Assembly (NCBI GenBank): GCA_018713585.1
Contig: DVON01000027.1
Coordinates: forward strand, 1-43,373
Direction: 5' to 3'
DNA length: 43,373 bases
From: Candidatus Pullilachnospira stercoravium
GTDB lineage: Bacteria; Bacillota; Clostridia; Lachnospirales; Lachnospiraceae
Positions 16,752 through 21,111 of this stretch are shown piece after piece. A program made the translations under genes and the position numbers. Positions within the stretch are counted from its first letter, which is position 1, and every line of letters starts with the position of its first letter. The notes under the pieces were generated by a model. It saw nothing but the letters and a program-made list of their open reading frames with translations, did not search any database and was not told the DNA's origin.

Positions 16752-18128
16752 TTACTGCCCCAGCGCATACAGGCGACTGTATTCTCCGCCTTTTTTCAGC
16801 AGCTCCTCATGGGTTCCTTTCTCACAGACGCCGCCGTCGGCCAGCACCACGATCTGGTCCACCTTCTGGATGGTGGACAGCCGGTGGGCGATGATCACGC
16901 TGGTTCTGTTTTTCATCATCCGGGCAAGAGCTGCCTGCACCGCCGTCTCGCTTTCATAGTCCAGGGCACTGGTGGCCTCGTCCAGAATCAGGATGGACGG
17001 ATTTTTCAGAAAAACCCTGGCCAGGCTGATTCTCTGCCGCTGTCCGCCGGACAGAGTAATTCCGTGGGTTCCCACCAATGTATCGTATCCATGGGCCAGC
17101 TTTTCAATGAATCCGTCCGCATTGGCCAGCCGGGCCGCCTCCCGGATCTCCTGCTCCTGCTCCAGCATGTCCATAAACCGGATAAATCCGGCTTTTCCTT
17201 CTTCATACAGCTTCATGAAATTCAGCAGAATCCGCACCGGCTCCGCCAGACTTCCCACATACAGGAGAAAGGTGATCAGAACCGGGATATCCAGCGTTCC
17301 GTTTCCCACAAAAAGCGCCCCGAAAAACACCGTGAGCATGGTGAGAAACTGGGGATATCCGCCCACCACCTCATAAAAGAAAGCTTCTGTCCGGTAAAAA
17401 CGGCAGCGGCTGTCGGTATAGCTCCGGCTCTTCCGGGAAAAATACTCCGCCTCCTGCTTCTCATTTCCAAATGCCTTCACCGTGCGGATTCCCGACAGCG
17501 CATCCTCCAGGCACTCATTCATCGCCGCCAGCTCCTGCTTTGCCGCCAGCGTATCCCGCTCCAGCGCCCGGTCCGCCCGCAACGCGTAAAAGGTCAGCAC
17601 CGGAAGCACGCAGAACACAATTCCCGTCAGCGGGGCATTGATATTCACCAGAATCACAAAAGCTCCCACAAATTTGATCAGCGTCATCAGCAGATCCTCC
17701 GGCCCGTGATGGAACACCTCCGTCATTCCGGTGAGATCATTGGACATCACCGTCATCAGTTTTCCCGGCGGATTGGCCGCATGGAAACGGAAGGACTGCC
17801 TCTGATAATGGGCAAATAATTCCTCCCGCATGGCAGATTCCATCTTTGCCCCCATGGCATGACCAAAATACGCATAGATCACATTGGCAGCCACCTGAAC
17901 GGTCAGCAGAATCAGCAGAACAATCCCCGCTCCGATCAGCCGTTTCTGCGTTCCCGGCGTCTGCCGCGCCAGAACCTCCTGGGTGATGTAGCCGGACACC
18001 AGCGGAAACAGCAGCACCGACACCGCGCTGACGCAGGCAAAAAACATATCCATGGCAAAGATGCCCCTGTACGGTTTATAGTAGGATAGAAATTTTGTGA
18101 GCCTTTTTCTGGTAATGATTTTCTTCAT
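16752..18128 (-). pseudogene. ABC exporter (TMD-NBD fusion) with internal in-frame deletion removing Walker A/Q-loop; intact reading frame, probably non-functional or specialised
   Basis: 458 aa. Exporter TMD then ...[74 protein letters not shown]; no GxxGxGKS/T and no Q-loop. Signature, Walker B and H-loop are present. Confidence 0.8.
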
Positions 18129-18347: not shown

Positions 18348-18626
18348 ATGACTTTTACATATCCCGCAATTTTTACCCCCAAAAAGGACGGTCCCGGCTT
18401 TCACGTTGTGTTTCCGGATCTGGAGTGCTGTGAGGCAGAGGGGCCGGATCTGGAGGACGCCCTGGACAACGCCATGGATGCCCTCTACAACTGGATCAGC
18501 GTGGAGCTGGAGGATGAGAACGGATACTTTCCGCCCCAGACGGATCCGGAGGACATGGAACTGGAGGAAGGCGCCTTTGTGCGGAACATTATGACCCGCA
18601 TCAAATTTCTTCCCGACAGCGACTGA
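18348..18626 (+). CDS. HicB-like (type II antitoxin / DUF1902-type) protein, solitary
   Basis: 92 aa; YPAIFTPKKDGPGFHVVFPDLECCEAEGPDLEDALDNAMDALYNWI is HicB-like; no HicA-sized partner ORF found next to it. Confidence 0.75.
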   Translation: MTFTYPAIFTPKKDGPGFHVVFPDLECCEAEGPDLEDALDNAMDALYNWISVELEDENGYFPPQTDPEDMELEEGAFVRNIMTRIKFLPDSD

Positions 18627-18631
18627 GAAAA

Positions 18632-18672
18632 GCGTGCAAAATCATTTTCCTGATGGTTTTGCACGTTTTTTT
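18632..18672 (+). terminator. Intrinsic terminator after the HicB-like gene
   Basis: CGTGCAAAA-tcattttcctgatgg-TTTTGCACG followed by TTTTTTT. Confidence 0.85.
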
Positions 18673-18736: not shown

Positions 18737-18776
18737 TAATTCTTGGGTAAATTTTTATATTTTTCCCAAGAATTAT
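18737..18776. promoter_or_regulatory. Long inverted repeat abutting the hppA -35 box
   Basis: TAATTCTTGGG-(loop)-CCCAAGAATTA, 11-bp perfect arms, immediately 5' of TTGACA at 18777. Confidence 0.6.
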
Positions 18777-18805
18777 TTGACATATCCCGATATTTCCTCT
18801 AAAAT
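18777..18805 (+). promoter_or_regulatory. Putative sigma-A promoter for hppA leader
   Basis: TTGACA(18777-18782)-17 nt-TAAAAT(18800-18805). Confidence 0.75.
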
Positions 18806-18815
18806 TTAAGTTAAT

Positions 18816-18951
18816 CAGAATAATTCTTAGGGTCTGTCCTGATATTTTGCATAAATAATGGGATTTTCTCCCAAAATTATGCAGCAACATCATAGAATTA
18901 TGTCGTTTGATACGGAAAGGCAGAACAACCCTTTATGTTCTGCCTTTTTTA
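18816..18951 (+). ncRNA. Candidate structured 5' leader (riboswitch/attenuator-like) ending in an intrinsic terminator, upstream of hppA
   Basis: P1 ATAATTCT(18820-18827)/AGAATTAT(18894-18901); P2 TGCATAA/TTATGCA with TGGGA/TCCCA; terminator AAAGGCAGAACA/TGTTCTGCCTTT+TTT at 18916-18950; the SD lies further downstream. Confidence 0.55.
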
Positions 18952-19023
18952 TTCATGATACTGGAAAGATTACTTCGATTCTTATTCTGAAATTTATTCT
19001 GTCCAGGAGGTGTAAAAAGAATT

Positions 19024-21111
19024 ATGGACACTCATCTTTCGTTGTTTTATGGTTTCTCCTTTCTTACGGCAGTTCTGGCCTTTGCCTTTGCCGCCTACCT
19101 GTACCTGTGGGTGAAAAAGCAATCCGTGGAGAATGTCAGAATTATCGAAGTATCCGCCCTGATCAAAGAAGGCGCCAATACCTTCATGCGCAGGGAGTAC
19201 GGGATTCTGGCCCGGTTCGCGGCCGTGGCGGCGGTCCTCATTCTCCTGTTTCTTCCGTCTCCCATATGGGGCGGCAATCCCCTTCCCAATATCGAGATGG
19301 CTGTGTCTTACCTGGCCGGTACCATCCTGTCCGCCATAGCGGGAAAAATCGGAATCCTGGTGGCCACGCTGTCCAACGGACGTACGGCGGAAGCCGCGCA
19401 GAAGGGCATCAAGCCTGCTTTTCTGATCGGATTTCGGGGCGGCGCCGTGATGGGGCTGCTGGTGGTCGGCTGCTCTCTGCTGGGAGTAGCGGCCGTTCTG
19501 ATGCTTTTTGACGATTCTTCCATCCTTCTGGGCTTTTCCTTCGGCGCCAGCTCCCTGGCTCTGTTCGCAAAGGCCGGCGGAGGAATCTTCACCAAAACGG
19601 CGGATATCTCCGCGGATCTCACCGGAAAGGTGGAGCTGGGAATTCCCGAAGATGACCCCCGCAATCCTGCCGTAATCGCCGACAATGTGGGCGACAACGT
19701 GGGTGACGTGGCCGGTATGGGCGCCGATCTGTTCGACTCCAATGTGGCCGCCATGGTATCGGCACTGGTGATCGCCCAGTCTCTCTCGGGAGGAAACTTT
19801 GCCAATATTTCCATGGTATTCTGTTACGCCATCCTGGGCCTGCTGGCCTCCATCATCGGAATCGCCACCGCCAGAATCGGAAAACACGGCAGCCCCACCC
19901 GGGCGCTGAATTCCTCCACCTACGTGACCACCGCCGTCTACCTGATTCTGACGGCACTGGTTACCGTTTTTGTGGAAGGATTTTCCTGGAGAATCTGGGG
20001 CGCCGCGGCGGTGGGACTTCTGGTGGGCGTTATCATCGGCATCACCACCGACTACTTTACGGACGACACAAAGCCCATCGTACAGCGGGTGGCCCATGCC
20101 TCCGGCTCCGGCCCGGCATTTACCATTTTGTCCGGCGTTTCCTATGGATTTATCTCCGCGCTTCCGGCCATGGTGGGAATCGCCGTTTCCGCCCTGGTAT
20201 CCTACAAAATCTGTGAACCCATGGGCGATGGCTACGCCATCTTCGGCATCTCCATGTCCGCAGTGGGCATGCTCTCCATCGTGGGAATGATCATCTCCAA
20301 CGATGCCTACGGCCCCATCGTGGACAATGCCCGGGGCCTGGCGGAGATGGGCGGTCTGGGAGAAGAAACCATCCGCACCGCCGATGAACTGGACAGCGCG
20401 GGAAATACCGTGAAAGCCATCACCAAAGGCTTTTCCATCGCGGCCGCGGGCCTGACGGTCATCTCGCTTCTGGGCGCGTTCATGTCGGAAGCCAACGAAG
20501 CACTGGAGGCCGCCGGGCGGGAACTGATCACCGGATTTGATATCATGTCTCCCACCGTATTCTTCGGTGTGCTGATCGGCGCGGCGATCCCGGCGGTATT
20601 TTCCGCCATGCTGATTCTGGGCGTGGACCGGAACGCTCAGCGTATGGTGGCGGAGATTCACCGGCAGTTCCAATCCATCCCCGGACTGCGGGAAGGAAAA
20701 AAGAACGCAAAACCGGACTACGGAAAATGCATCGACATTGCCACCTCCGGCGCCCTGCGGGAGCTGATTCCCGCCGGTCTGACCGCCATCATCGCCACGG
20801 TTTTGGTGGGCTTTATCGGCGGTCCGCTGGCCATCGGCGGTTTCCTGCTGGGAAATATCGTCAGCGGTCTGCTGCTGGCGCTGTTCATGTCCAATGCAGG
20901 CGGGCTCTGGGATAACGCCAAGAAATATGTGGAATCCGGCCAGGAGGGCGGAAAGGGAAGCGAGGCCCACAAGGCAGCCGTAATCGGCGATACGGTGGGG
21001 GATCCCTTCAAGGATACCGCCGGACCTTCCATCAATACCCAGATCACGGTAGTTTCGCTGGTGGCCTCTCTGCTGTCGGCGGCATTTGTGACATTCTCAC
21101 TGTTCGGATAA
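19024..21111 (+). CDS. hppA: Membrane-bound ion-translocating pyrophosphatase
   Basis: 695 aa; DNVGDNVGDVAGMGADLFDS, GNTVKAITKGFSIAAAG, GDTVGDPFKDTAGPSINTQI. Confidence 0.97.
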   Translation: MDTHLSLFYGFSFLTAVLAFAFAAYLYLWVKKQSVENVRIIEVSALIKEGANTFMRREYGILARFAAVAAVLILLFLPSPIWGGNPLPNIEMAVSYLAGTILSAIAGKIGILVATLSNGRTAEAAQKGIKPAFLIGFRGGAVMGLLVVGCSLLGVAAVLMLFDDSSILLGFSFGASSLALFAKAGGGIFTKTADISADLTGKVELGIPEDDPRNPAVIADNVGDNVGDVAGMGADLFDSNVAAMVSALVIAQSLSGGNFANISMVFCYAILGLLASIIGIATARIGKHGSPTRALNSSTYVTTAVYLILTALVTVFVEGFSWRIWGAAAVGLLVGVIIGITTDYFTDDTKPIVQRVAHASGSGPAFTILSGVSYGFISALPAMVGIAVSALVSYKICEPMGDGYAIFGISMSAVGMLSIVGMIISNDAYGPIVDNARGLAEMGGLGEETIRTADELDSAGNTVKAITKGFSIAAAGLTVISLLGAFMSEANEALEAAGRELITGFDIMSPTVFFGVLIGAAIPAVFSAMLILGVDRNAQRMVAEIHRQFQSIPGLREGKKNAKPDYGKCIDIATSGALRELIPAGLTAIIATVLVGFIGGPLAIGGFLLGNIVSGLLLALFMSNAGGLWDNAKKYVESGQEGGKGSEAHKAAVIGDTVGDPFKDTAGPSINTQITVVSLVASLLSAAFVTFSLFG

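Follow-up and report, generated by a model that had tools for sequence, protein, structure and literature searches.

A putative transcription attenuator before hppA, probably built on the plan of an undescribed riboswitch-like element of gut Clostridia

Introduction

Membrane pyrophosphatases are a source of ion gradients in many anaerobes. In classical terminator/antiterminator riboswitches of Firmicutes, the same leader segments are contested by aptamer, antiterminator and terminator. The Li+ riboswitches nhaA-I and nhaA-II, which are found in the leaders of cation-transporter genes, are families present in Rfam. In the Na+-I riboswitch (DUF1646 motif; White et al. 2022), P1 and P2 are joined by an unconserved linker and the conserved bases lie in the P2 loop (PMC9337991). 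The nqrA-II motif is a candidate with four stem-loops that occurs in five genera of Pasteurellaceae (PMC11109978). In the open-access journal literature searched, hppA was nowhere described as controlled at the RNA level, and there was nothing on hppA riboswitches, phosphate riboswitches or the gene set reported below.

Here, we describe the leader of hppA in the window, the whole stretch of 43,373 nucleotides that was analysed, and compare it to a conserved element in related genomes. We think it probable that this leader is a transcription attenuator that either descended from, or follows the same plan as, an undescribed riboswitch-like element of gut Clostridia. The interest lies chiefly in the canonical element and less in the window's own diverged copy.

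Results and discussion

The hppA leader in the window

The region upstream of hppA contains the following features.

18737-18747 and 18765-18775, no strand given: palindrome, arms TAATTCTTGGG and CCCAAGAATTA, adjoining the -35 box (repeat search)
18777-18805, + strand: promoter TTGACA-17-TAAAAT, 11 of 12 consensus matches in the promoter search
18820-18827, + strand: 5′ arm of P1, ATAATTCT (read directly; repeat search)
18828-18839, + strand: one-sided bulge of 12 nt, TAGGGTCTGTCC, between the 5′ arms of P1 and P2
18829-18838, + strand: 5′ strand of the putative antiterminator, inside the bulge and including TCTGTC (18833-18838)
18840-18843 and 18889-18892, + strand: 5′ arm of P2, TGAT, and its partner ATCA, a short helix of 4 bp (read directly)
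18848-18883, + strand: inner two-part hairpin, TGCATAA (18848-18854) with TTATGCA (18877-18883) and TGGGA (18859-18863) with TCCCA (18869-18873)
18894-18901, + strand: 3′ arm of P1, AGAATTAT, perfect complement of the 5′ arm over 8 bp
18916-18950, + strand: intrinsic terminator, AAAGGCAGAACA (18916-18927) with TGTTCTGCCTTT (18936-18947), then T's
19005-19010, + strand: Shine-Dalgarno-like AGGAGG (read directly)
19024-21111, + strand: hppA, membrane pyrophosphatase (NCBIfam sodium-translocating pyrophosphatase, above cut-off)

The promoter, P1, the inner hairpin, the terminator and the palindrome had been listed in the first-pass annotation, and direct reading together with the repeat search found all of them in place. 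The terminator was detected by the repeat search and by a separate terminator scan, and was missed by one standard terminator scan. The leader RNA (18810-19023) folds with -56.2 kcal/mol compared to -40.2 ± 4.1 kcal/mol for shuffled sequences (z -3.87), and none of the 200 shuffles was as good, in line with the earlier description of a structured leader. The annotation had also proposed an attenuator with a TCTGTC:GGCAGA antiterminator, which is supported by predicted pairing and energies. GGCAGA (18919-18924) lies within the 5′ arm of the terminator and is the complement of UCUGUC. In the truncated transcript, the computed energy of the antiterminator is -26.9 versus -23.9 for P1, and with the terminator present P1 plus terminator reaches -40.6 versus -32.3 for the antiterminator.

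As previously noted, the palindrome shares its arm sequence with P1; this sequence recurs with one mismatch at 18821-18831 (repeat and half-site search). An alternative is control at the DNA level, with a repressor that binds on both sides of the promoter, to the palindrome (18737-18775) and to the half-site at 18821-18831. The promoter is indeed flanked by two perfect half-sites and a third with a single mismatch, and these three matches in the window compare with 0.87 expected by chance. Nevertheless, we regard this explanation as quite improbable, since three or more matches also arise in 5 of 100 shuffles, the complementarity to the terminator is left unexplained, and the helix arms of the family described below covary as expected of RNA. 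DNA-level repression may also be additional to the RNA control that we favour; the palindrome is possibly an operator, or possibly part of nothing.

Two minor observations concern the same leader. ATAATTCTT (18820-18828) is perfectly complementary over 9 bp to AAGAATTAT (19017-19025), which overlaps the hppA start codon; in AT-rich DNA such a match may be fortuitous, or it may add a layer of translational control. The possibility that the leader is a repeated or mobile element was dropped, as no second copy was found in its own genome.

A conserved and covarying element in related genomes

hppA homologues were taken from genome contigs and their upstream regions were compared, leading to the discovery of a motif, GGAATAAGTGGTGGAGTCTGTCATAGGG...CCCTATTTATTCC, in nine loci whose hppA genes are 81-88% identical. 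An intrinsic terminator usually comes next, with hppA behind it. The hppA of the window belongs to the same gene clade as these first loci; the window does not contain the motif in that form.

The element spans about 53 nt and consists of two helices around a one-sided bulge, with the core AAGUGGUGGAGUCUGUCA. In canonical members, P1 has 7 bp and P2 at least 6 bp; the helices are stacked directly on the 3′ side and enclose a 15-nt bulge on the 5′ side. This bulge, GUGGUGGAGUCUGUC, is nearly invariant, while the P2 loop is variable. In the first alignment of 9 sequences, made with MAFFT without structure, two-sided changes were seen in 8 of 13 pairs. The alignments made later were fitted to the model and are hence biased towards it: with 21 sequences two-sided changes affect 11 of 13 pairs, as they also do with 41 distinct sequences, in which 95.3% of cells pair versus 81.8% in shuffles, 77 cells versus 20 are changed on both sides, and the covariation score is 0.485 versus 0.217, a signal that is lost on sliding the partners. 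The hppA leaders of the relatives thus contain a new, strongly covarying element; the window itself matches no covariance model. The P1 sequence and the large inner hairpin of the first-pass annotation turned out to be particular to the window and are not kept in the family.

At the gathering threshold of Rfam 15, neither the window leader nor the canonical members in ten loci gave a match, which agrees with the earlier placement outside known Rfam classes. Permissive searches returned weak unrelated matches for the window leader and, for two PiT-type loci, matches that were all elsewhere or far under the cut-off. Some members have changed cores: one locus (L013) has a partly diverged core, GTAGAGAGGTCTGTC, and in the hppA leader of another (L018, about 1250-1300) the core seems to have decayed, GGAATAAGTGGTTGAGCGATATGTCA, possibly a loss in progress.

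Distribution and downstream genes

A search of 391 genomes from the class with the covariance model R1 gave 3 strong matches; within one family, 10 of 150 genomes had a match. With model R2, matches were obtained in 22 of 325 genomes of the order to which that family belongs. None of the 399 genomes of a phylum-wide sample matched R2 under the strict filters used, which is weak evidence that the element is rare outside the order where it is common.

For 42 aligned matches of the covariance model set, the first identifiable downstream gene was recorded. In total, 22 precede hppA, 7 a PiT phosphate permease gene, 3 a CitMHS-type transporter gene, 2 a gene for an LPG-synthase-TM protein and 2 trkH, the two TrkH loci being near-duplicates. 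Single matches precede genes for a Na/Pi symporter, the beta subunit of a Na+-translocating decarboxylase, pyruvate kinase and an ABC exporter, and 2 matches were left without assignment. One genome (G1078) has three copies of the element, before LPG-TM/TrkH, hppA and PiT genes, and several PiT operons with the element run on into genes for a DUF47 protein and TrkH. One candidate regulon would link hppA, PiT, Na/Pi symport, Trk, the Na+-pumping decarboxylase and pyruvate kinase. In the canonical family the structure is conserved and covaries, an expression platform accompanies it, and the genes that follow are functionally related; these are features by which a riboswitch is recognised.

Some individual copies are worth describing. 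A canonical element with one core change (GUCUGGC) lies directly before the pyruvate kinase gene (L119, 1501-1552, - strand), the only clearly cytoplasmic-enzyme target among those seen. Copies with the core AAGGGGTGGAGTCTGTCA precede an ABC exporter operon in two genomes (L107 in G715 and L108 in G815); in G815 a further copy, serving a PiT gene, follows at a distance of about 4 kb. A phage origin was also considered: the exact core was found 26 times in viral contigs, but these gave one weak model match only (22.1 bits), and we therefore do not regard it as a phage element.

The element might be bound by a protein, either an RNA-binding antiterminator or a terminator protein, rather than by a small ligand. 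It is small, an unpaired stretch next to the switch is highly conserved, and comparable protein-bound attenuators are known, such as the RAT elements of the BglG/SacY family and the PyrR sites. On the other hand, no regulator gene was recurrently linked to the element in the loci examined, and riboswitches typically look like this, with a compact bulge and two covarying helices ahead of a variety of transporter genes. These two points do not settle the matter; we consider a protein partner rather unlikely.

Core-terminator complementarity and promoter spacing

Where a promoter could be recognised, the element starts 6-14 nt past the -10 box in 38 of 39 cases; in the window the distance is 11 nt. 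A test of 6-base complementarity between core and terminator that tolerated G-U pairs (35 of 41 observed versus 16.8 expected) was judged too permissive, so a strict search was made for GRCAGR, the complement of the core UCUGUC, against background terminators. GRCAGR was present in the 5′ arm of the terminator in 25 of 36 cases, versus 17 of 271 background terminators from the same loci; about one third of canonical members have no obvious GRCAGR terminator. Moreover, in 21 of 26 members, calculated for transcripts ending before the 3′ arm of the terminator, P1 is no more stable than the pairing of the core with the terminator arm. The P1/P2 fold with the terminator, on the one hand, and the antiterminator, on the other, are therefore taken to be mutually exclusive.

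The leader terminator is the only one of the window's 22 terminators with GRCAGR, although the probability of the complementarity in the window is partly post hoc, as it had been noticed before the family was known. In addition, CCCT (18929-18932) in the terminator loop could pair with AGGG (18829-18832) and lengthen the antiterminator. This extension is specific to the window; canonical members pair GGAG with the terminator at the same place. On the sequence of this one case, it looks like coevolution.

Relation of the window leader to the element

Model R1 gave no match in the window at E ≤ 10. With filters off, the best R2 match in the window scored 12.5 bits and was in the wrong place, and the best one in the window's own genome (17.9 bits, E 1.49) was on another contig. 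The core AAGNGGUGGAGUCUGUCA is absent from the bulge of the window: only its 3′ part, GUCUGUC (18832-18838), is there, and the 5′ part reads TTCTTAGG. By contrast, the layout is kept, with a one-sided 5′ bulge of 12 nt ending in GUCUGUC between a P1 of 8 bp and a P2 of 4 bp, together with the promoter spacing, the GRCAGR terminator and hppA as the target gene. Among shuffled leaders, 0.135% contain GTCTGTC and 0.02% show the whole architecture. Because the layout is kept while the core has lost its 5′ half and the models miss the window, we call this leader a diverged relative and not a member; it would work like the element yet fails its sequence definition.

Two close hppA homologues of the same family (87-88% protein identity) have no comparable leader, so that no intermediates tie the window to the canonical element; L013 alone has a core that is changed in part. 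A DNA search with the window leader in 299 genomes of the family gave short, chance-like matches only, and a relative of the same genus had no hppA match. The window leader could accordingly be a lineage-specific terminator leader or a dead remnant, with chance complementarity and without element-like function, as the missing covariance-model match, the decayed copy at L018 and the same-family hppA genes that manage without a leader would allow. We find this rather doubtful, given the rarity of the motif and architecture in shuffles, the promoter spacing that agrees with the family and the uniqueness of the matching terminator in the window.

Proposed mechanism and ligand

In the proposed mechanism, the stacked helices P1 and P2 would hold the nearly invariant bulge at the extreme 5′ end of the transcript, and its UCUGUC could alternatively pair with the GRCAGR arm of the downstream terminator to form an antiterminator. 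When P1/P2 is stabilised, presumably by a small ligand, UCUGUC would be held back, the terminator would form and the gene would be off; when it is not, the antiterminator would form and the gene would be transcribed. An OFF switch is thus predicted if the P1/P2 fold is the bound state. We infer ligand binding, this direction and the descent of the window's copy; the element probably lowers expression of downstream genes via an early end of transcription. The window has kept GUCUGUC and the terminator/antiterminator half; with other bases in place of the 5′ half of the core, its sensing may have been altered or lost.

The functions of the downstream genes make Na+ a leading candidate for the ligand, along with phosphate or pyrophosphate. 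Na+ is suggested by the Na+-translocating pyrophosphatase and decarboxylase, the Na/Pi symporter and the CitMHS/DASS-like transporters, and phosphate or pyrophosphate by the PiT, Na/Pi and hppA genes. K+ (TrkH, pyruvate kinase) or Mg2+ are possible. To our knowledge, no RNA that senses phosphate or pyrophosphate is known so far, and one would be new. We see about an even chance that the canonical element is a new riboswitch class through which gut Clostridia repress hppA, phosphate permeases and cation transporters in response to Na+, phosphate/pyrophosphate or a related membrane-energetic signal, and that the window has a variant of it whose core, and possibly also ligand, has changed. As the minimal element is just about 53 nt long and comes with a ready terminator read-out, the ligand is directly testable.

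The kind of regulator, a riboswitch-like 5′ leader attenuator, is known; the element and its gene set are absent from Rfam 15 and from the literature searched. nhaA-I and nhaA-II are likewise cation-transporter leaders, whereas the element has no Rfam match. It shares with classical terminator/antiterminator riboswitches of Firmicutes the competition of aptamer, antiterminator and terminator for common segments, but there a helix arm beside the core gives the antiterminator strand, whereas here the conserved core itself does. Like the Na+-I riboswitch, it is a short leader RNA read out by transcription termination before ion-transport genes (PMC9337991); it differs by its P1 and P2 stacked around a one-sided conserved bulge, by its variable P2 loop and by having no Rfam match. 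The nqrA-II motif is also a candidate leader RNA before a Na+-pump gene, but has another architecture and other hosts (PMC11109978).

Genes upstream of hppA in the window

Upstream of hppA lies a gene for a HicB-like antitoxin domain (18348-18626, + strand; Pfam HicB_lk_antitox), with a separate terminator-like hairpin at 18628-18670. Of the ORFs of at least 35 aa just upstream, none could be recognised as a HicA-like partner. In the ABC exporter gene at 16752-18128 (- strand), the ATPase domain matches the second half of the Pfam profile only (68-137 of 137); the Walker A part seems to be missing, perhaps by an internal deletion.
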